Assembly: GCA_964016985.1 (NCBI GenBank)
Contig: OZ024825.1
Location: forward strand, 34,750,057 to 34,814,056
Source: Anodontia alba
Lineage: Eukaryota; Mollusca; Bivalvia; Lucinida; Lucinidae
DNA length: 64,000 nucleotides
Reading direction: 5' to 3'
Shown here: piece by piece, positions 5,692 to 63,860 of the stretch
Numbering within the stretch: the first letter of the stretch is position 1
Layout: the number at the start of each line of letters is the position of its first letter
Translations under genes and position numbers: made by a program
The notes under the pieces: generated by a model
Told to the model about the DNA's origin: nothing
The model's input: only the letters and a program-made list of their open reading frames with translations
Databases searched by the model: none

Positions 5692-7010
5692 ACAACAACA
5701 AAAAAAACTTGATCCCGGTCTAAACTATCTGAGAGCAAATACTTCCTATGAAATTCTCGAATACCTAGTTTAAGGTGAAGTAAAGACGTCTTTGGTTTAG
5801 GAAGAAATAAATTAGTATTTTGACAATGGAAAGAAATACGTTAATTGACTATGAACATTCTCAAAATGCTCAGTTTCCATTCTTTAAGGGCTGAATGTTC
5901 AACATACTCTTGCTTACACCATCGATTACCGGATTCATTCAAGGCAGCAGCGATGTCTTCCCTACATTTATTGAAATCAATATTAGAAGAAAATTTGTAT
6001 TTCGGTCCTTTATATTTCGGAATCTAGAATCAGGAAATATTTCTAAATTCCCAGTGACTGTATGACCTGCTGCTGGATAGCAATATACTGAGTCTTTACA
6101 ATCTTAGATCAGGAGTAGTTGTGTCAATATTGAGATCTGAAACAAGTTTATTAAAATTAAATATGATAGGTCGAACAGGTTTGTTATACTTATAGTAAAA
6201 AAAGGTAAGAGACAAGTCCAGGGAGTGCCAAAATCACAAACCGCAGCCCTTCCCAGACACCAAGAGGAAGAGGAAACAGACAAATCCAAACAAGCACAAA
6301 TCGAACAAACGTACGAAAAGCACTAAGATTAGCTCTCTCTTCCCCAAGCGAGGTAATCGCAATGCTAAAAGGACTGAAAAACACAAGGACAAAATGACAC
6401 AAGGTAAGACATAAAACAAATCGCCTCGTAGAATAAACCACAAAGCAACAAAGAGTAAGACTAACACCGGGACAACCGCCTTATAACGGTCAGTAGAGTA
6501 AACCACCTGGGGGTTTAAAGCACTTTTACAGCTAGCCAACCACCCTGGGTCCCGATGCTACTCTTAATACAGAAATACATAAAAATTCGGTTTGCATAAA
6601 GGCTCCCAACTCAATCAATGCATCAAAGCGAAAACATAAAAATTAAATTAATCACTATAATAAACAAAGACGAGTACCCATGGCTAATTCTATTGTATGC
6701 CAGAGTAAATGAAAACCAAAGGTTGAACCACGGCAGGCCAAGCCAAAGACATATCGTTAAGCCCCAACCCACTGGTTAAAGTTTTAGGAAGAGGCCGTCA
6801 TTAATTATGGGTGTTTCAGTATTTTGAAAATAAGTTGGATTGGATGAAATAACCGACTTGTCCCGGAAGATACTTGGCAAATCAATAAAACCCATCTCTT
6901 TATTTACGAAAGAAATATTGACAAAATGAAGTTTGAGATTAATTTGTTTGAAAACCTAATTTGTCGAGTGAGATTGTATAGAAATATATGTTGTTTCTTT
7001 TGTTTGTTTG

Positions 7011-8978: not shown

Positions 8979-9971
8979 AAAACATTGATGCAAAGCATCA
9001 ATACGCCGGGAAACTAATCTGTCATGCATTACTTAGCTCCCTATAGATCGTAGTATAGTGAAATAATGTTATAATTTATGAAAGGTTGTAATTATATAAA
9101 TTATCGCAATACTCAACGATAAAAACATTATAGACATTATCAGAGCTATGTCTGTTTTCTAGCCCGCATACATAATTACATGTCGCCATCCATAGCCTAG
9201 GCCGAACATACTATATCCTAAATCATCTATGTAGCAATGTTTCGTTCTTTTCTCCACTCATAACGTTTTCTTTCGGCCCAAATCTTTCCATGCTTGAATA
9301 TCAAATTAAACCCTATTATTAAACCAGCTTATAATCCGTTCGATTTGAGAATGCATATTTCCAATCGTAAACAAAGAAAAATATCTTTTGTTTCTTCTTC
9401 GTAGTAATGAAAAAAAAAACAAAATGAAAAAATTTCAAACGTGTAAGAATATTGACAGCAACAAGCTCATTTCAGGTCGAATGGTCGAATTGGCGCTCCT
9501 ACGGAAAAACTGCTCATTTCTCTTTTAAATGAGCAAAACCCATATTGCTACATTCATTCTACACAGTTCTTCCCATTTTTTATTTCACTATATTACCAAT
9601 AGCACAGTTCTCTGCTGCAAAAGTGACATTTTGTTCTTGTGTTTTTCAGTCCTTTTAGTATTGCGATTACCTCGCTTGGGGACGAGAGAGCTAATCTTAG
9701 TGCTTTTCGTGCGTTTGTTCGATTTGTGCTTGTTTGGATTTGTCGGTTTCCTCTTCCTCTTGGGGTCTGGGAAGGGCTGCGGTTTGTGATTGTGGCACTC
9801 CCTGGACTTTTCTCTTACCTTTTTTTGAATAATAAAAAAGTGGGAGGCCAATAGTTATATATCACCCCACTAAGAACCCCATAAAATTGGAAGAAAACCG
9901 ATGTTCTTCAAATGCATACAAATTTTATAAAAACAACCTTAAATAGATACGCCGGGCTCCAGCCCGGCGTA
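8979..9971. mobile_element. 993-bp hairpin-ended element inside T2
   Basis: Flanked by AACAAG at 8973-8978 and 9972-9977, a probable 6-bp target duplication in T2 sequence. The left end carries the hairpin TTGATGC/GCATCAA (8985-9001) then TACGCCGGG. The right end is a perfect 11-bp hairpin, TACGCCGGGCT/AGCCCGGCGTA (9948-9971). No transposase is seen. A Naiad 3' fragment (9625-9830) sits inside it. The class is unknown. Confidence 0.65.
9625..9830 (+). mobile_element. Naiad 3'-terminal fragment
   Basis: Plus-strand copy of the last 200 bp of the Naiad 3' end, from TTTTGTTCTTGTG through CGATTACCTCGCTTGGGG to the terminal CTCTTACCTTTTTT. A severely 5'-truncated insertion. Confidence 0.9.
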
Positions 9972-12243: not shown

Positions 12244-12734
12244 AAAAGGTAAGAGAAAAGTCCAGGGAGTGCCACAATCACAAACCGCAGCCCTTCCCAG
12301 ACACCAAGAGGAAGAGGAAACCGACAAATCTAAACAAGTACAAACCGAACAAACGTACGAAAAGCACTAAGATTAGCTCGCTCTTCCCCAAGCGAGGTAA
12401 TCGCAATACTAAAAGGACTGAAAAACACAAGAACAAAATGACACACGGAAAAACATACAACAAATCGCCTCGTAGAATAAACTACAAAGCAACAAAGAGA
12501 AAGACTAACACCGGGACCACCGCCTTAGAACGGTCGGTAGAGCAAACCACCGTGGCGTTTAAAGCACTTTCACAGCCAGCTAACTTCACCCTGGGTCCCG
12601 ATGCTACTCTTAATACAGAAATACATAAAAATTCGATTCGCATAAAGGCTCCCTACTCAATCAATGCATCAAAGCGAAAACATAAAAATCAAATTAATCA
12701 CTATAATAAACAAAGACGAGTACTCTTGGCTAAT
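12244..12734 (-). repeat. Naiad 3' pseudo-LTR
   Basis: A 491-bp direct repeat, nearly identical to 16414-16904. Ends with CTCTTACCTTTTAT in element orientation. Includes an imperfect hairpin, GATTA-c-CTCGCT / AGCGAG-c-TAATC (around 12370-12404). It holds the 3' UTR where a SECIS would be expected if the TGA codons are read; I could not pick one out. Antisense open frames here are non-coding shadows. Confidence 0.9.
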
Positions 12735-12830
12735 TCTACTGCATGCCAGAGTAAATGAAAACCAATAGTTGAACCACGGCGGGCCAAGCCAAAGACATAT
12801 CGTCAAGCCCCAATCCACTGGTTAAAGTTT

Positions 12831-15800
12831 TACGAAGAGGCCGTCATTGAGTCTGAGGCCCGAACCGCCGTCGTGCAATTAAAGAGTGAAGCATAGCCAT
12901 CAACAATGATTGGGTTGACAACTAGGCATGCAGTCTGCCGCATAAGATCCAGGCTATAGCCAATTCTTTTATAACGGTTAATAAGTTTTCTGAATTGCTC
13001 CGAAAAGTTAGATTTACCTACAATTTTCCTAAATCTGTACACTAAGTCACCGTAAAATTCGGGTTCCGATATACCTTGTTGCAGAAGTGTTTTCAGACTG
13101 ACGCTATATTTTTCTAACAAGGCACTGTGTCTGCGATAAAATTTCGAAAACGCCTTACGAAGTTTAAAATAACGATAGCCCTGCCTAAGAAGTTTGGCAG
13201 TAAGGGCTTTATTACGGTAGTTAAACTCATAAAGATTTGAAGAAGCTCTGGCGAATCTTATAAGTTGAGATATGTATACCCCATATGAGGTACGCCGGGA
13301 GACATCGCCATCCAGAAAAGGGAAATTGACTATATCAAAATCAAAATCGTCCCGTTTATCATAAATTTTGGTGGAAACTGTACCATTAGATATACATAGA
13401 TTCAAATCCAAAAACGGTGCCTCGGTATCGGAAGAATTTGCTCTATTTAATTGGAGTTCTGTAGGGTATATCCGGTCCACCATTTGGTCAAAGTAAATAT
13501 TGTCAATATTTAATAAATCGTCAAGGTATCTTGAAGTTGAATTGAAAACCTCAATAATGTCAGCCTGATTTTCATGTGAGAGAGACTTCATGAAATCTCT
13601 CTCAAAACAAAAAAGAAACAAATCTGCAACAAGAGGAGCACAATTAGTTCCCATCGGAATACCAATAGTTTGTCTATAAAGTTTAGTTCCAAATCTAATA
13701 AAATATTATCCAAAAGATAAACAAGGGCATCACAGACTTTTTGACACGACCATAAATTGTGATTATTATATACATCAGAAGTGAAAAAAGCACATTCTTC
13801 GTTGCAAGCCAAATATTGGGTATTCTCCCGAATAAACGTTCGGTTAATTAAATCAATAAGTTTATCTTTTATAAGATGATGAGGTAACGTAGTATACAGT
13901 GTAGAAAAATCATATGTAGACAATTTAGAAGCCTGAAAGTTTTTAGATTTAAATTTATTGAGAACATCATTAGAATTTTTAATTGACCAAAAATAGTTAA
14001 TTCCGTCCCTTTCGTAAACAGTATCATAGTATCTAATCCAATGTTTTTAACAGCAGTAAGGCATGAAGTTAGCAGTTTGGACAAAACAGTAGTCTTACAA
14101 GAACTAGAATTAGCAATGAAACGTGTTTTATAAGGTCGTTTATGAAGTTTCGGTAACCAATATAACGTAGGAAGTCCGTCTTGCTTTTCTTTAATACTCA
14201 CTGCAAACTTAGCAGTAATATCGATAGAATGGGTATTGATAATAGATCTCTCGTCAGTAGAAATCCGTTCATACGTTTTGGTACTACCAAGTTCTTGTTT
14301 TAGAGCATTGATATATTAAAGTCGTCACACAACAACAACATTATTAGCAGCTTTATCAGCTGGAGCCAAAACATACTTCCTATGAAATTCTTGGATACCT
14401 TGTTTCAAATATAGAAAAGATAATTTAGGCTTAGGAGGGAGAAGATCAAGGTTATTAGAGTAAAATAACACACGTTCATCAATGATCTTAAAATCTTTAA
14501 TTTCCAGTTATTTAAAGCATTGGATTCAACATGCTCTCGTTTACACCAACGCGTATAATAATCATTTAAAGCACTGGCAATTGTTTCCCGACATTTACTG
14601 AAATCAATGTGGGCTGGGAATCTATATTTAGGTCCTTTTGAAATAACTGAACGGATTCGTGAATCAGTTATAATCTTCAAGTTACCAGTGACAATATGAC
14701 CCGCTGGTTGATAACAAAATTTAGAATCTTTACAATCTCAAGAATCAGGGTAACTAGTTTCAATATCAAGATCAGAAACTAATTTATTGAAATTTAGTAT
14801 AGTATTACGGATAGGTTTGTTATATTTACAACAAATAATAGGAGATTCCGTGTTTTCGAAATATGAAGGTATAGCTGATATAACATTATTATCTCGAAAT
14901 ATGCTAGGTAAATCTATGAATTCAATACCTTTATTAATGAATGGAATTTTGATGAAGTGTTTAATGTGGTTAATTTCAGAATCAATGTAAGGACGAAGAG
15001 CATGTTGAGTATAACATCTAGTAAGGAGAGCTGCTTCATACAAATCATGTTATCTATCATAAAATTTATTCGCCTCATCATCTAACTTACGTAATGAAGA
15101 AACAGACAGTGAAGCTAGTTTAGAAAGCATTTGATGACGTCCAGAATTTAAGAGAATATTTAAATCAAAAAGAGATAAAACAGTTTTATGTTTTCGTTTA
15201 AAATTGCCATTTTTGCGCTTACCATGGGATCGTTTATTGCGTTTTTTAATATCTAAAAGGGAAAAAGCATCGAAATCCGGCATGTTAAAAATATTTCCTA
15301 CATGGTAAATATTATCATTAAATCCAAGTGGAAAAGGGATTTGTAAACGTTTAATCCATTTAAATCATGTTCATGTCTTAAAATATTTTTTAATCTTTCG
15401 GTAGAACTGGACTTGTGAATAAGTTTTTCAACAGGTTGAACCAAAACTTTACTAGATGATCATGAATGACCAGTACTCCGGAAATGTTGATAAAGAAACG
15501 TATCAATTTTCTTTGTTTTTTTTTTTTATATTAAGCAAATGTTCCTTAAACCTTGTTTTAAGAGCCCGTTTGGTCTGTCCAACATACTGCACTCCTCAGC
15601 CTCCTTCGCTGCAAGTGAGAACATATATAACATCCTCTGATTTTCAGTCTAAATCAGAGATATTTACAACTGAAAATTGTCTATGATTAACTGAGGAAAT
15701 TATAGTTGACCGACAAATTAAATGATTGCAGCAGGTGCTACTCTTGGCATTGCACTTAGAAATATTAGGGTATATACTGTTCCTTTTCTACGGATTCTTA

Positions 15801-16042
15801 TATTTTAGAAGTATAGGAGATTTAATTGGAGAAAGTCTAATTCTAAGGTGATTACTGAAAATATTATAATTGGAAGCGCCATATAAATTTATAGATGATA
15901 CAGAGTGAAGTTTCAAAGGTGAAAGGTTAACAGTAGGTAACAGAGAGTTAAATCTAGCAGTAGAACGGGGAATCTGTAAAGAAGAAGCAGAATGTAGCCT
16001 AACAGGAGAAATAGTAATTTTTAATCTGTTAGTGATACTCAT
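12831..16042 (-). pseudogene. Naiad GIY-YIG endonuclease-reverse transcriptase with in-frame TGA codons
   Basis: The retroelement polyprotein would nick target DNA (GIY-YIG) and copy its RNA (RT). N-terminal Ser-rich leader from ATG 16040-16042; Cys/His-rich stretch; VIY (15623-15631) and YVG (15578-15586) of GIY-YIG, with TRFKEH after it; linker with HSTGHS, FNKLVSDL, DCKDSKFCYQPAGHIVTG; RT landmarks TLYWLPKLHKRPYKTRFIA, YDFSTLYTTLP (motif A), GIPMGTNCAPL (motif B), YLDD (motif C, 13517-13528) and PFLDLNL. In-frame TGA at 15644-15646, 15596-15598, 15460-15462, 14738-14740 and 14325-14327; four sit where the family has Cys. Real lesions: TAG 15788-15790, TAA 15050-15052 and 14316-14318, and about five single-base frameshifts (near 15525, 15370, 14500, 14055 and 13680). 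Probable selenoprotein-type ORF, now broken. Confidence 0.82.
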
Positions 16043-16413
16043 ATAGTTGTAAAGGAAGTAATACCATTAGATAAAAAGCAGTATTCGTACCGGCTATTAT
16101 AGGCAGTAAGTAGCGATGCAAACAGGCGGTAGGACCGATGCATACAGAGTATAACAACAACCGACAATACATAACTAAGTCTAATACAAGTCTAAAGAAA
16201 CGTAAAGTAAGAAATTGTTATAAACGGAATACGAATACCGGTAAATATCTAACCTTCAATGAGGTATAAATTAGAATCATGAGGAAGAGGAATACGAAAG
16301 GTGATTGTAAAGTGCAAACTCTGGCACATGAAATAATAACACCATTAAATGAATGTACGGGGAGACTTTCTAGGGTCTCCACACGGCACAAACACAACAG
16401 GCGTGGTATGCAA

Positions 16414-16904
16414 AAAAGGTAAGAGAAAAGTCCAGGGAGTGCCACAATCACAAACCGCAGCCCTTCCCAGACACCAAGAGGAAGAGGAAACCGACAAATC
16501 TAAACAAGCACAAACCGAACAAACGTATGAAAAGCACTAAGATTAGCTCGCTCTTCCCCAAGCGAGGTAATCGCAATACTAAAAGGACTGAAAAACACAA
16601 GAACAAAATGACACACGGAAAGACATACAACAAATCGCCTCGTAGAATAAACTACAAAGCAACAAAGAGAAAGACTAACACCGGGACCACCGCCTTAGAA
16701 CGGTCGGTAGAGCAAACCACCGTGGCGTTTAAAGCACTTTCACAGCCAGCTAACTTCACCCTGGGTCCCGATGCTACTCTTAATACAGAAATACATAAAA
16801 ATTCGGTTCGCATAAAGGCTCCCTACTCAATCAATGCATCAAAGCGAAAACATAAAAATCAAATTAATCACTATAATAAACAAAGACGAGTACTCCTGGT
16901 TAAT
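16414..16904 (-). repeat. Naiad 5' pseudo-LTR
   Basis: A direct repeat of the element's 3' end placed at its 5' side, as usual for tandemly inserted Penelope-like elements. About 1% divergent from 12244-12734 (for example A/G within the ATTCGRTTCG word). The sequence between it and the first ATG (16043-16413) is non-coding leader. Confidence 0.9.
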
Positions 16905-17254
16905 ATGCCTCTTTATCACCCCTGCTGGGATCTCATAAACACTTCTTAATGACACGCCTTTGATGTCTCTTCCATACCACTTAGGTAGGGGAAATAAAAT
17001 CTTTAGTGAGTGGTATTGTGCCGTGTGGCGGCCGTAAAAAGTCTCTCCGTACATCATCATAGTGCTGGTTATATTTTGTTGCGGGTCGTCTTGTCGGCCC
17101 GCAAATATAGGAGTTGAGCTAATCACACATCAAATTCGGGAATTATACCGAACCGGAAGCGGGTGCATACTAATCTACAGTATTTCCGGTATTCATAGAG
17201 GTATTCCCGGTAATCTTAAAGGTTTATGTGTTTGACACAGTATAACATCAAAAG
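16905..17254. other. Unassigned flank of the Naiad
   Basis: No gene recognised. Ends in the CAAAAG target duplication (17249-17254) of the next element. Confidence 0.4.
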
Positions 17255-34000: not shown

Positions 34001-37000
34001 ATGTGCTTATCCTAATTTTACACATAGATGTATCAAATTATAGTACGTGCGTGCATGACAGTGATGACTCAGAAAATGCATTTCTTTCTAAAGGCAAAAT
34101 AGCTCCAGCCAGACTGCTCCAGATAAGCGGAATATCCAGACAAATATTTATCTTATTTCTCCAGGACATTGTTTGTTGTGGGTGTTCGTAAGAAATAGCT
34201 CATTGAGATACTTCTGGTGAGTGCTTAAAACACGTTTTCTCGGAGAAATAAGGAAACTAACAAAACCTTTTGATTCAGAAAACGACCTTATCTGCATCCT
34301 CGAAAGGGAGAGCAAAAATTGAAATAGTTTTGTTACAGTATAATATCCATATCAGAAATATTGCAGATTGGGCAAACAAAAAATGTGTGTGTTTAGGGTA
34401 ACCTGACCCTACCTTATTTACCCGCTGAAGCATAGCAGTTTTTGTTGCACACCTTTTCCAAGAAAAGCAAGGGAACATAGCTAGTATTCTGGGCCCAGTT
34501 GTTCAAAACATTGGTAGCTTAACAAGCCCATTAGTAGTCAAAATGTTAACTATTAAGTAAAATATCTAATTCACAGGTATTTTTGCTGAAAAAATGTGAG
34601 TAACTGTTGCAAATGCAAAAGCTACTCACATTTTTTCAGCAAAAAATATTAGCATATATGCCATATTTAATGGTCAAAGTTTTAACGCTACGTTAACTAC
34701 GAGGTTGAGTCAATAAGTAACCAGCCTAACTTATTTCCGGTCGAGATCCACCTTTTCTTTTTCGATGTAATTGCCCTCTAGTGTGATGCACTTAGACCAA
34801 CGGTGTTCAAGTGCCATCAGCCCAGAACTGAAAAAGTCAGGGTCCTTTCCATTGACCCACTCCTCATCTGCCATCACGACTTCTTCATCAGACCAGAAAT
34901 GAAGTCCATGGATATCCTTTTTCAAGTTTGGGAATATGAAGAAGTCGCTAGGAGCTAGGTCAGGCGAATAGGCAGGATGTGGTATTAATTCATACCCGTT
35001 TTGCTCTACAGCATCCATTGCAACTTTGCAAGTGTGGACTCTCGCGTTGTCCTGTTGCAGCAAAACACCTTTAGAGAGTTTACCTCGGCATTTTTCACGG
35101 ATGGCGGTTCTCAGCTGGTCTAACAAGTTTGCATAGTACACTCCAGTTATTGTACTTCTCTTGGGTAAAAAGTCCAACATAAAAATGCCTTTTGCGTCCC
35201 AAAATACTGTGGCCATCACTTTGCCAGCAGATGGTTGCGTCTTGGCCTCGGGGACCCAGGCCCTACCCACTCTGAGCTTTATTCTCTGGCTCATAATAAT
35301 GAACCCAAGTCTCATCTGCAGTCACCAGATGCAAAAGAAAATCATCTTTTGACCTAAAACGCTTCAACAAGGCGCTGCATACTGATGCTCTGGTTGCCAT
35401 TTGCTCATCGCTAAGGGATTTGGGGACCCAATGGGCTGTTAGCTTGCGCATACTTAAACGATCATGTAAGATTGTTGAAACGCTACCATGTGAAATGCCT
35501 AATGCCTGCGCTATTTCTTCCACCTGAATTCGCCTATCAGGGTATACAAGATCCCGAACTTTCTTACACATTCCTTCGTCCGTGGCATCCAGTGGGCGTC
35601 CAGACCTGGCTTCATCTTCTAAAGACGTTCTACCGCGTTGGAATTCTCCTACCCAGAATTTAACCTGAGCATAAGATGATGCAGAAGACCCATAAACATC
35701 GGCTAACTCGCCGTGTATTTCCTTGCCTGTTTTACCTTTTAAATACAAGTACCGAATTACAGCACGGTACTCAACTTTAGATGAAAAGCATGCCTTTGCA
35801 TCACTAGCCATGTTTGACATTCAATATCTTATTAAAGAATGACTCGATACGCCTGTAATTTTGTACCCATGTATAAATCATATATTGAAACAAAGCATGA
35901 AAATCGTGACCGTCTCGGTCCATCAGAAATGGGATAGGCTGGTTATTTATTGACACGTCCTCGTAGCAACATCGTTAGTTTTGAACAACTGGGCCCTGCT
36001 CACTTGCTGTAGTTCATCCAGCAACAGCAAACTGAGGAACCATCATTTTTGTCAATCTCTGCTGGTATTTTTGATAAATAATGTATGAGCCTTCAGTATG
36101 AGAAAATGTACCCTCTGACAGGCACCTAGTGAAGACTAAGATGATGCTGTGCATTTGTACCTGTAGAAGTCTTTGATCCTTGGCTTTCCAAAGAGTATGC
36201 AGCAAAGACTTGTCAGCATGCAGCAAAGACTTGTCAGCATGCAGCAAAGAACATGCAGCAAAGACTTGTCAGCATGCAGCAGAGACTTGTCAGCCTGCAG
36301 CAAAGACTTGCCAGCATGCAGCAAAGACTTGTCAGCCTGCAGCCAAGAGCATACAGCAAAGACTTGGCAGCATGCAGCAAAGAACATGCAGCAAAGACTT
36401 GTCAGCCTGGGCTGACAAGTCTTTGCTGCATGCACATAACTGAAAATACATTTTCTCACATTTTATCTCAAATGCTGTTTTTTTTTTTTCCTTTCAGTAC
36501 ATTTGTATGCCCAACAGAAATAATTGCCTTCAGTGATAGAGCTGAGGAGTTCAGAGCTATTAACTGTGAGGTTGTGGCATGTTCTACTGACAGCCACTTC
36601 TCCCATTTGGCATGGTAAGTTACTTCAGAATACCTAAGACAGAAGCAGTTTAAAGCAAAACATAAGCAGAAATTTCTTTTTATTCTTGGAAATATTTATA
36701 ACTTTGTATTCATGAAATATTTTCTATGGTCATTCTCTCCATTCCGCTGATTCAAGAAGGGCAGTTAGTTATCAGTTTCTTGTGAAAGAATGCACACAAT
36801 ACTGGTTAACTGCTTAGAGGACTAAGCCTACCCAGTAAAAGTATGGTCAGGTAAAGTGATCACGCTCCACATGCCCCCATTGGGTTGACTGGGCCGTAAA
36901 ACCTCAACACAAACGTAACTTTCCGAGGAATAACCTTTTATTAGGGCTGATTTTCATGCCAAATTATGACTATCACAATAATATCACTATCAGAGAAACC

Positions 37001-55197: not shown

Positions 55198-55905
55198 AAA
55201 GCTTGCATTGGATCTTTCAACACCTTGTAGAAATGGTGCAGCCATATTGAAGATGTGCATGTGGAAGTTTGATGCTGATTTTTTTCAACGAACTGACAGG
55301 GACTAGAACTTGCCGATTTTCCGAGTAATTCTTATTATACGATATTTTGTAGTACGACTTACAGTGCGTACTTTGTGTAATCGACTCCTCTTACAGCTTT
55401 TATTGGATCTGTTCAACGCTTTGTAGAACTGATACAGATCGACATAGTTAAGATGTACCTGTGGAAGTTTGATTCTGAAAAAAAAAAGAAAAAAAAGAAA
55501 AAAAGACAAATTGACAGGGTTGGGAACTTAATTACCCATTTTCGGAGTAATTCTTACTTTATGGTGTTTGTATTATGACTTATAGTACATACTGTCTTTA
55601 AATAACTCCTCTTACAGCTCTTATTGGATCTGTTCAACACTTTGATGCAGGCATATTGACGATGTGCAGCCGGAAGTTTGACATTTTTTCCCCAAACTTA
55701 CAAGTTTCGGAGTGATTCTCACTATATGTTGTTTGTATTATAGCTTATAGTATACACATTGTGTAATAAACTCCTTTTACAGCTTTGACGGGATCTTTTC
55801 AACACTTTGTAGAAATGATATAGGCTCTGAGGAGGTAGGCGTTTTGAAGATGTGCATTCGAAAGTTTGATGCTAAAAATATTTTTTGAGAAACTTACAGG
55901 GTTAG
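55198..55905 (+). repeat. Short tandem array T5, about 190-bp unit
   Basis: Four units carry TTGGATCTTTCAACACTTTG-like words, GATGTGCATGTGGAAGTTTG and ACTCCTCTTACAGC, starting near 55198, 55396, 55618 and 55780. The Naiad copy begins inside the last unit. Confidence 0.75.
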
Positions 55906-55906
55906 G

Positions 55907-57175
55907 ACCGGATATATACTCTACGGAACCCCAATTAAATAGAAAAAAATTCTTCCGATACCGAGGCACCTTTTTTGGATTTGAATCTATGTATATCTAA
56001 TGGTACAGTTTCAACCAAAATTTATGTTAAACGAGACGATTTTGATTTTGATATAGTCAATTTCCCTTTTCTGGATGGCGATGTCCCCCGGCGTACCTCA
56101 TATGGGGTATACATATATCAACTTATTAGATTCGCCAGAGCTTCTTCAAATCTTAATGACTTTTACTACCGTAATAAAGCCCTTACTGCCAAACTTCTTA
56201 GGCAGGGCTATCGTTATTTTAAACTTCGTAAGGCGTTTTCGAAATTTTATCGCAGACACGGTGCCTTGTTAGAAAAATATAGCGTCAGTCTGAAAACACT
56301 TCTGCAACAAGGTATATCGGAACCCGAATTTTACGGTGACTTAGTGTACAGATTTAGAAAAATTGTAGGTAAATCTAACTTTTCGGAGCAATTCAGAAAA
56401 CATTAACCGTTATAAAAGAATTGGCTATAGCCTGGATATTATGCGGCAGACTGCATGCCTAGTTGTCAACCCAATCATTGTTGATGGCTATGCTTCACTC
56501 TTTAATTGCACGACGGCGGTTCGGGCCTCAGACTTAATGACGGCCTCTTCGTAAAACTTTAACCAGTGGGCTGGGGCTTGACGATATGTCTTTGGCTTGG
56601 CCCGCCGTGGTTCAACTATTGGTTTTCATTTGCTCTGGCATACAGTAGAGTTAGCCATGAGTACCCGTCTTTGTTTATTATAGTGATTAATTTGATTTTT
56701 ATGTTTTCCGCTTTGATGCATTGACTGAGTTGGGAGCCTTTATGCGAACCGAATTTATTGTATTTCTGTATTAAGAATAGCATCGGGACCCAGGGTGAAG
56801 TTGGCTGGCTGTAAAAGTGCTTTAAACCCAGCCCTCCCCCCACCCCCCCACCCCCCCTCCCCCGGTGATTTACTTTGCTGACCGTTCTGGGGCGGTGGTC
56901 CCGGTGTTAGTCTTACTCTTTGTTGCTTTGTGGTTTATTCTACGAGGCGATTTGTTGTATGTCTTTCCATGTGTCATTTTATTCTTGTGTTTTTTAGTCC
57001 TTTTAGTATTACGATTACCTCGCTTGGGGAAGAGAGAGCTAATCTTAGTGCTTTTCGTACGTTTGTTCGATTTGTGCTTGTTTGGATTTGTCGGTTTCCT
57101 CTTCCTCTTGGGGTCTGGGAAAGGCTGCGGTTTGTGATTGTGGCACTCCCTGGACTTTTCTCTTACCTTTTTTTT
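55907..57175 (+). mobile_element. Naiad copy, 5'-truncated
   Basis: Plus-strand copy of the last 1.27 kb of the Naiad. It starts at GACCGGATATAT (matching the coding region before PTELQLNR), includes the RT C-terminus and ends with CTCTTACCTTTTTT. A G/C-rich tract (CCCCCACCCCCC, 56830-56863) replaces part of the 3' UTR. Confidence 0.92.
55910..56555 (+). pseudogene. Naiad RT C-terminal fragment
   Basis: Encodes FLDLNLCISNGTVSTKIY, VNFPFLDGDVPRRTSYG, LLRQGYRYFKLRKAFSKFYR and FRKIVGKSNFSEQFRK, about 95% like the 12.8-13.7 kb copy over this stretch. The frame breaks at about 56403 and continues as INRYKRIGYSLDIMRQTACL to MTASS at about 56550. The YLDD motif lies upstream and is absent. Confidence 0.9.
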
Positions 57176-60451: not shown

Positions 60452-61812
60452 GGACAAAACGTCCCATGGACAAAACGTCCCATGCTATTTTTGACCAGGT
60501 GGACCAAATGTCCCACATCATTTTTTCAGGGTGGACAAAACGTCCCACATGATTTTTTCAGGGTGGACAAAACGTCCCACGTGATTTTGACAGGGTGGGC
60601 AAAACGTCCCATGCTATTTTGACAGGGTGGACAAAACGTCCCATATTCAATTAGAAGGTAGAGTTTAATTCTCTAAAAGGGAATCATTATACTTAATAAA
60701 AAGGAATTGTTCAATCTATCTAATACATAACTAATTGTTGTTTGTTGAAATGATATTAGAAATGATATTAGCTCAATCATACACAGTGTGAAAATATTTT
60801 GACTAATTACAATTAACACATTCTGATTAGGAATAGAGACCTATCTAATTAATAACTAATTGAAATGAAATAAGTACAATCTTACAAACTGGTAAGATAT
60901 TTTTACTAATTACAATTAACACATTCTGATTGGAAATTAAAGGAATGTATCAGTTAGTGTAGTTAAAGTACAAAGTGTATTGTTTTGTCAATTAAAGGTG
61001 TTGACAAGTTCAATTCATTAAAAATTGTGACAAAACAAACAGGTCAAAATAAATATATAGCCCTACATACATAATGTTGTATGCCAAAAGCAATATAGAG
61101 ATCACAGAGAATAACAAAGGCAATCAGAAGCTGTGCTTCCAAGAGTACTCGTATACTGAGAAAAGAACAACCAAATCCACGGTTAACTGGATATGCTCAG
61201 AAAGAACAGCCCCAAAATGCACTGGATCTTTAATTACAGATTTAGCTGTAAGTATATTGCATTAAAACTTATCTTATATTAATAGCGGTTCAGTATTTTT
61301 ATACAAGATGATATATCGAGTAATGAAATAATGGGTGAAAAGTGTGTTTCAGATACTATTATTTTATTGTTTCAAATGCTAACAGAGTAAGTTTAGTTGT
61401 ACACATTTTCTTATATGTGCTATCATCATAAAATTTCTTTTATGTAAAAACTGTGCTCTTAACCATGTGCTCTTTAATGATTGTGTTTGCATATTCATGT
61501 TTTGTAAATAAAAGCATCTTAATATATTTCCACATTCATTTTTTTTAGTGTTCATGGGGGTATATTGTCGCATACCTTCCAAATCCCTTCCCCCCTCCCT
61601 AACACCACCTCGAGAATATGGGACGTTTTGTCCACCCTGTCGAAACAGCATGGGACGTTTTGTCCACCCTGTCGAAATAGCATGGGACATTTTGTCCACC
61701 CTGTCAAAATCATGTGGGACGTTTTGTCCACGTTGAAAAAAATGACGTGGGACGTTTTGTCCACCTGGTCAAAAATGGCATGGGACGTTTTGTCCATGGG
61801 ACGTTTTGTCCT
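60452..61812. mobile_element. Foldback element with GGGACGTTTTGTCC phrase repeats
   Basis: The left arm (60452-60650) holds six GGACAAAACGTCCCA-type phrases with 20-25 bp spacers; the right arm (61612-61812) holds the same in inverse. Both outer ends carry a doubled phrase. ATTGGGGAT occurs at 60436-60444 and 61819-61827, a likely 9-bp target duplication a few bases outside the phrases. The interior (60655-61610) is AT-rich with no recognised gene; a 63-codon frame at 61074-61265 has no motif. Confidence 0.8.
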
Positions 61813-63565: not shown

Positions 63566-63860
63566 AACTGTTGCTTTGTGGTTTATTGTACGAGGCGATT
63601 TGTTTTAAGTTTTGTCTTGTGTTATTTTGTCTTAGTGTTTTTCAGTCCTTTGAGCATTGCTATTACCTATATTGGGGAAGAGAGAGCTAATCTTAATGTT
63701 TTCGTTCGTTTGTTTGATTTGCGCTCGTTTTTTTTTTCGTTTTTTTTCCTTTTTTTTTTTTTTTTTTTTCTGTTTCCTCTTCCTCTTTGTAACTGGGAAG
63801 GGCTGCGGCTTGTGACTGTGGCACTCCCTGGATTTTTCTCTTATCTTTCTTTTGGCATTG
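63566..63860 (+). mobile_element. Naiad 3'-terminal fragment (diverged)
   Basis: Plus-strand copy from TGTTGCTTTGTGGTTTATT to TTTTTCTCTTATCTTTCTTT. It is about 85-90% like the others and has a long T-run at 63728-63769. The pseudo-LTR hairpin stem is not conserved here. Confidence 0.85.

Follow-up and report, generated by a model that had tools for sequence, protein, structure and literature searches.

The 64,000-nucleotide window examined here, a stretch of the genome of the lucinid bivalve Anodontia alba (contig OZ024825.1, positions 34,750,057 to 34,814,056), carries on its minus strand a Naiad-type Penelope-like retroelement, which is very probably (about 92%) an inactivated copy of a family whose single open reading frame (ORF) encodes a selenoprotein. 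On the evidence of sequence comparison, five in-frame UGA codons of this ORF would be decoded as selenocysteine (Sec or U). Naiads are N-terminal endonuclease-positive (EN+) Penelope-like elements that combine a GIY-YIG endonuclease, a CxC linker, a reverse transcriptase (RT) and pseudo-long terminal repeats (pseudo-LTRs), lack a canonical hammerhead ribozyme, and are further defined by an insertion-in-fingers domain and a telomerase-like RT fold. Spider and clam Naiads are reported, in the 2021 work of Craig, Yushenova, Rodriguez and Arkhipova (Mol Biol Evol 38:5005), to have independently evolved selenoproteins with multiple selenocysteines. Those Naiads resemble the window family in their N-terminal GIY-YIG, CxC linker, RT-homologous part, pseudo-LTRs and many copies. 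The kind of element is already known, and the window family may be one of those described in 2021.

In the window copy, five frame changes break the reading path of the Naiad protein (Table 1), as do three stops that are private to it. On a read-through piece of this path, the Pfam GIY-YIG model matched residues 138 to 186 (E 2.4e-5, 25 bits, cut-off 22.6), with TGA 15646 just upstream of the match and TGA 15598 within it (codons and alignment columns are named by the highest coordinate of the codon). The endonuclease lies N-terminal to the part homologous with RT-bearing relatives, the CxC linker motif reads U-D-C, and the element has pseudo-LTRs in the form of 491-base direct repeats; an Rfam scan of the whole window found no family at gathering score and so no canonical hammerhead ribozyme. 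Pfam gave no match of any kind on six window pieces; the homology of the window protein to RT-bearing relatives is strong. The protein of the Cys-type relative L048 matched RVT_1 at 21.4 bits, below the 29.6 cut-off, and a profile of 27 relatives compared with solved structures gave one match, to the GIY-YIG endonuclease 1ln0_A (E 0.0065), and none to an RT. The predicted structure of the L048 protein has a mean predicted local distance difference test score of 83.3.

A search of the genome (1.86 Gb, 317 contigs) for the family of the window element, which we call family A (the labels A, B and C are our own), gave 2,480 first-look candidates, and the best 40 of these, at 95–100% identity, were scored. 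The 40 include the window itself, and the 39 others, which were retrieved, are the closest copies and hence a non-random sample. TGA predominates among these 39 at all five sites (Table 1), and the per-codon majority of the 40 copies holds exactly five stops in 1,042 codons, all of them TGA. At the three private stops of the window, the other copies have TAT (32), TTT (1) or a gap (6) for TAG 15790, AAA (38) or AGA (1) for TAA 15052, and TAT (39 of 39) for TAA 14318. The five TGAs are a feature of the family, not damage of the window copy, and the counts rule out random nonsense decay of a single copy. The chance that at least four of five TGAs fall on Cys columns is 2.6e-6 with all codons equal and 0.0075 when codons are weighted by their one-step opportunity to become TGA, and the chance that all five are TGA rather than TAA or TAG is about 0.002; the copy counts carry more weight than these figures. 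The window element itself is very probably a dead copy of a selenoprotein-type Naiad.

An earlier reading made from the letters of the window alone (the sequence-only reading) had listed five TGA codons on the minus-strand path of the retroelement, and the three-frame reading bears out all five positions. The count of TGA against TGT or TGC that it had proposed for four of the columns also came out in its favour. Its inventory of in-frame stops was correct for TGA but omitted the three non-TGA stops, and the peptide RLYYIN that it placed after TGA 14327 was a misreading, because the DNA there reads U-R-L-stop-Y-I-N, the stop being the private TAA at 14318. The fifth TGA, 15462, which it had called less clear, proved to be as conserved in the family as the others, but this codon, directly after a GHS histidine, is not at a Cys column.

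The columns of the other four TGAs are occupied by Cys in relatives of the Cys type. Alignment A4 consists of L048 and 26 Cys-type homologues (27 rows), leaving out P0060 (L048's own protein), P0049, P0050, P0057, P0058, P0082, P0084–P0087 and the Sec-like proteins. At nine of its columns, Cys makes up 80% or more of the rows. Cys occupies column 15646 in 24 of 24 aligned rows (3 gapped; Cys 149 of L048), column 15613 in 25 of 25 aligned rows and column 15598 in 25 of 25 (2 gapped; Cys 163 of L048). It fills all 27 rows at columns 14740 and 14327, and also at 14734, the second Cys of the CxC motif, which stays Cys in the window family. Family A has TGC at 15613 and TGA at 15646, 15598, 14740 and 14327, and the claim of the sequence-only reading that these last four stand at Cys positions thus holds in every aligned row. 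Outside A4, column 14740 is Ile in P0057 and Arg in the poorly aligned P0058, and tblastn, owing to a gap, set an AAA codon of L048 at column 15598, where A4 places Cys.

L048 (contig QIJL01000205.1, filed as a Flavobacteriales metagenome-assembled genome (MAG)) contains a Naiad-like ORF of 1,013 amino acids. It has the same domain order as the window family, and each of the five Cys columns with predicted Sec in families A to C is Cys in L048; unlike the window family, its ORF is open without a stop and it gave no match to a selenocysteine insertion sequence (SECIS) at E ≤ 10. In L049, a mussel-associated contig, column 14327 is TGT. The Naiad sequences within these bacterial-MAG contigs (L048, and L049:4950-5300 from a Bathymodiolus symbiont) are probably host or eukaryote contamination. 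A scan of genome contigs gave two loci, and no encoded relative of the Naiad protein was found in viral contigs.

Two sister families in the same genome, B (L070, L071, L080 and L081) and C (L082, plus L072, which is rearranged upstream), show 63–71% amino-acid identity. They have three TGA sites in common with family A and one more at another invariant Cys column, 15613. In family B, TGA stands at 15646 and at 15613 in three of three copies (L071, L080 and L081 for 15646), at 14740 in three copies, with CGA in L081, and at 14327 in four of four; column 15598 is TGC in L071 and L081 and GGC in L080, and column 15462 has Leu or Val codons. In family C (L082), TGA is found at 15646, 15613, 14740 and 14327, TGC at 15598 and CCT at 15462. 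Ten further bodies have TGA at 14740 (9 of 9 aligned) and at 14327 (10 of 10). Bar two family-specific sites, the TGAs of the three families occupy five of the nine Cys columns. Families B and C have predicted Sec at column 15613, where A has Cys; at 15598 the pattern is reversed, with Sec predicted in A and Cys in B and C (apart from the GGC of L080), indicating that the set of predicted Sec sites has shifted between families. In a protein search, 50 of the 53 rows tallied (of 63) had at least two TGAs; the totals of 149 TGA, 40 TAG and 103 TAA make ordinary decay plain as well.

Because the Sec sites turn over between families, it is plausible that Sec is real but neutral, with Cys codons drifting to UGA under efficient host recoding and the SECIS becoming locked in, with no redox or metal-binding gain. 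The reciprocal pattern at 15613 and 15598 is what such drift would leave, as are the family-specific TGAs at non-Cys columns, and the title of a selenoprotein P study cited in PMC8230778 names molluscs. However, three sites stay TGA in A, B and C, bar one CGA, though TGT and TGC are one base change away. We place neutrality slightly short of an even chance. It is compatible with the selenoprotein reading, under which Sec would be either a functional gain at these cysteines or the product of neutral drift.

Coding constraint, a criterion for selenoproteins, persists beyond the last TGA. Between the family-A majority and L082, the fractions of differing sites at codon positions 1, 2 and 3 are 0.233, 0.164 and 0.509 over 1,028 codons, and 0.213, 0.148 and 0.505 over the 479 codons after the last TGA. 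The corresponding values after that codon are 0.206, 0.161 and 0.487 for L080, and 0.295, 0.228 and 0.488 for L081. A protein ending at any of the TGAs would not keep such constraint downstream. These values bear on whether the family is a fossil, its TGAs being old nonsense mutations of a dead master element that an intact helper element had propagated. Rapid copying of a single source would account for the star-like relationship of the 40 copies (24 variants common to four or more, versus 1,379 singletons), and the open frames of the 39 copies, the longest being 899, 887 and 849 codons with TGA as sense, are all shorter than the path; yet a fossil would not be expected to have three TGAs in common with B and C at their level of identity, third codon positions differing at about half of sites with constraint maintained past the last TGA, majority stops that are TGA five times out of five, and a SECIS with covariation at the end of the ORF. 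On the few diverged copies compared, we consider a fossil family extremely improbable.

The SECIS-like element lies across the end of the ORF, overlapping its last codons (Table 1). Helix I is followed by an internal loop in which AUGA (12847-12844) faces UGA (12805-12803), then by helix II and by an apical loop that holds UAAAA and a mini-stem. Rfam SECIS_1, whose gathering score is 35 bits, matched the window at 12855-12792 on the minus strand (19.4 bits, E 0.66 in a 701-base search), five other family-A copies at 19.9–22.6 bits, and family C at 37.9 bits (E 1.3e-5) and 38.1 bits (E 8.2e-5), above gathering. In the SECIS search that the sequence-only reading had called for, the match falls short of 35 bits in family A and exceeds it in family C, and it lies across the stop codon of the ORF. 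A 99-base family-A form folds as SECIS-like (z −2.7), an 81-base cut folds otherwise (z −2.0) and the 43-base core equals shuffles (z 0.0); the family-C form has a z of −4.9. In nine sequences drawn from the three families, standard pairs make up 90.8% of 251 cells, compared with 33–50% when the structure is slid. Changes on both sides occur in 13 cells, a number that 0 of 500 shuffles reached, and covariation scores 0.258 versus 0.189 (again 0 of 500). The test is biased towards the structure, part of which came from the very alignment that was tested. The SECIS region was found in 33 of the 39 retrieved stretches, though in a few of them, L021 for one, it may come from a neighbour, and the three core motifs are all intact in 24 of the 33. 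All three families place AUGA in the codons after Asp-Ser and the ORF-ending TAA in the apical loop. Three database proteins, P0004, P0008 and P0034, have SDSMMAPT or SDSMMVPT at their C-termini, which suggests that the overlap of SECIS and ORF end occurs elsewhere.

The host genome contains tRNA-Sec at five places over the cut-off, three at 77.4–77.8 bits and two at 47–49 bits, and the anticodon is TCA in one locus retrieved. Only strong matches are counted, because control genomes also match: all 14 did so at the loose level, and 5 of them exceeded the cut-off.

Homologous proteins in databases provide a further view of the Sec columns. Three overlapping searches (58, 28, and the best 120 of 194) gave 190 predicted proteins, of which 66 break off immediately before column 14327 and 47 immediately before 14740 (113 together), counts that are not a prevalence, as the queries and length windows favour fragments. 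A MAFFT alignment of the 190 misplaced the endonuclease columns, and only columns 14740 and 14327 and the protein ends were used from it; for the endonuclease columns, A4 and other alignments served. The stops behind the 113 ends would be TGA, and the proteins would come from other species. In a motif search, 39 proteins ran on through 14327; 23 of them have C there, 15 have W and one has F. Trp is also present in P0001, P0015 and P0028 at 15646 and 15613, both of which are TGA in families B and C; at the protein level, this Trp would be TGA translated by gene callers. Selenoprotein Naiads are probably mis-annotated in databases, cut at TGA or given Trp, and the Trp or exact stop at Sec columns in proteins P0001–P0191 is likely a systematic annotation error.

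Such translations with Trp at these columns (for example P0001, P0003 and P0028) are what would be seen if the UGAs were decoded not as Sec but as one of the standard residues, Trp or Cys, by a suppressor tRNA or by readthrough. However, families B and C have TGA, not TGG, where these proteins show Trp, which most likely comes from gene callers using a code with TGA as Trp; every aligned Cys-type row has Cys rather than Trp at the sites, and a SECIS and tRNA-Sec are present. We regard decoding as an ordinary residue as very unlikely.

Several observations weigh against the selenoprotein reading. None of the 39 copies has the whole frame open, even with TGA read as sense. The family-A SECIS_1 scores (19.4–22.6 bits) are all below gathering, and a 68-kb search over 14 family-A copies gave no SECIS match at E ≤ 10. 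Family B reached 18.3 bits in one of two sources, also below gathering, with no SECIS_1 match in L080 and L081, and two family-B cuts fold no better than shuffles (z −0.6 and 0.2). In the covariation test, the five pairs changed on both sides were matched by 75 of 500 shuffles and the 14 further pair types by all 500. Column 15462 is variable (V in 8, I in 6 and C in 1 of 27 A4 rows), and family B has an extra TGA in an LKULS stretch (3 of 3), again not a Cys column, which gives A and B one family-specific TGA each at a non-Cys column. Families B and C rest on few copies, and single copies show decay on the aligned path: one TAA in L080, three TAAs in L081, and one TAG and one TAA in L082. The selenoprotein-type element proposed in the sequence-only reading is supported, with TGA in the copies, Cys at the four columns in relatives, and a SECIS-like element present; each of the three outcomes that it had named as refuting was looked for, and none was observed.

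Under the selenoprotein reading, and following established selenoprotein biology, SBP2 and eEFSec recruited by one SECIS would deliver Sec-tRNA at all five UGAs, yielding one full-length endonuclease–linker–RT protein. At four positions where Cys is otherwise invariant, the protein would carry Sec instead: two belong to the Cys cluster of the endonuclease, one to the CxC linker and one to the start of the RT part. An extra Sec would stand beside the GHS histidine. Termination would take place at the UAA inside the SECIS apical loop; each terminating ribosome would have to open the hairpin, and refolding would be needed for the next round. Because one SECIS would make UGA sense along the whole ORF, UGA could appear, move or be lost at single sites, and families A, B and C do differ by gain, shift or loss of single UGA sites, in line with this model. 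We see an even chance that this is a transposon lineage with a SECIS built over its own stop, in which UGA is sense throughout the ORF and the SECIS includes the UAA terminator. In such a lineage, subfamilies would exchange Cys for Sec and the reverse, UGAs would also emerge at sites that are not Cys, and selenoprotein Naiads would extend far beyond spiders and clams. The wider spread is suggested because 113 of the 190 predicted homologues stop at two Sec columns.

Table 1. The Naiad-type element of the window and its parts (position 1 is the first base of the window).
Feature	Position	Strand	Evidence or remark
Naiad-type retroelement	16904-12244	minus	Includes direct pseudo-LTRs
Upstream pseudo-LTR copy	16414..16904	minus	98.8% identity to 12244-12734 over 491 bases
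Naiad protein reading path	12830..16042	minus	Three-frame reading; putative start Met at 16042
Private stop TAG	15790-15788	minus	Comparison with 39 other copies
N-terminal GIY-YIG endonuclease region	15481..15646	minus	Pfam match about 15631-15481; base coordinates approximate
TGA, probable Sec 1	15644..15646	minus	TGA 38, TAA 1 among 39 copies
TGA, probable Sec 2	15596..15598	minus	TGA in 39 of 39 copies
TGA, probable Sec 3, family-A-specific	15460..15462	minus	TGA 38, gap 1; 38 of 38 aligned copies
Private stop TAA	15052-15050	minus	Comparison with 39 other copies
TGA, probable Sec 4, first position of CxC linker	14738..14740	minus	TGA 37, TGG 1, TCA 1 (39 copies)
TGA, probable Sec 5, start of RT part	14325..14327	minus	TGA 37, TGG 1, TAA 1 (39 copies)
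Private stop TAA	14318-14316	minus	Two codons past TGA 14327
SECIS-like element	12773..12874	minus	Rfam SECIS_1, fold, covariation; overlaps last ORF codons
TAA, the ORF's own stop	12830..12832	minus	Within SECIS apical loop
Downstream pseudo-LTR copy	12244..12734	minus	One of a pair of 491-base direct repeats

A 131-base part of the downstream pseudo-LTR (12490-12620, minus strand) has an unusually strong predicted fold (z −4.5), which 0 of 200 shuffles equalled; a SECIS near 12620-12490 was set aside, as the Rfam match and covariation point to 12874-12773. Both pseudo-LTRs contain long antisense ORFs, of 170 codons at 12246-12758 and 191 codons at 16374-16949 (both plus strand), and the 170-codon ORF was rejected as a gene, being fully open in 5 of the 30 long-enough copies (of 39). 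A diverged Naiad piece at 5739-6192 (minus strand) shows 68% identity to the element; its CxC site reads CTAAGATTGT after a 2-base loss, and the TGA there may have turned into TAA. More partial copies of the element or its pseudo-LTR, at 75–96% identity, lie at 55905-57171 (plus), 6198-6802 (minus), 9623-9825 (plus) and 63569-63848 (plus). Elsewhere in the window, two overlapping ORFs at 34731-35820 (minus strand) resemble what we take to be a mariner-type transposase split by a frame change, and two arrays of 32-base units at 60467-60643 and 61618-61796, about 1 kb apart, have consensus units that are mutual reverse complements in a GGACAAAACGTCCCA core.

Among known systems, molluscan selenoprotein P is alike in that a single molluscan mRNA has many UGAs translated as Sec, but it is a host protein, and no relation to the retroelement protein is claimed. 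Two sources describe a SECIS in the coding sequence of fowlpox GPx4 (Mix et al. 2007, as cited in PMC8310308 and PMC7409322) and in the coding region of StyGPx5 (PMC7409322), and a review passage places all cellular SECIS elements in the 3′ untranslated region (UTR) (PMC8310308). Fowlpox GPx4 and StyGPx5 resemble the window element in having a SECIS in translated sequence and not wholly in the 3′ UTR; the window SECIS differs from theirs in that it straddles the stop codon, would serve five UGAs and belongs to a retroelement. In the part of the open-licence literature searched, we found in print neither the SECIS over the stop codon, nor the Cys/Sec turnover between sister families, nor the many database homologues stopping at Sec columns, and no paper linking Penelope-like elements with selenocysteine.

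A SECIS placed over the stop codon is an unusual layout, and the exact sites, the differing Sec/Cys patterns of the sister families and the SECIS sequence make the selenoprotein reading testable. Animal selenoproteins are few and mostly redox enzymes. A high-copy element in which several conserved cysteines of the endonuclease and RT, possibly metal-binding ones, had given way to Sec would tie transposition to selenium supply, and also to the efficiency of host recoding.

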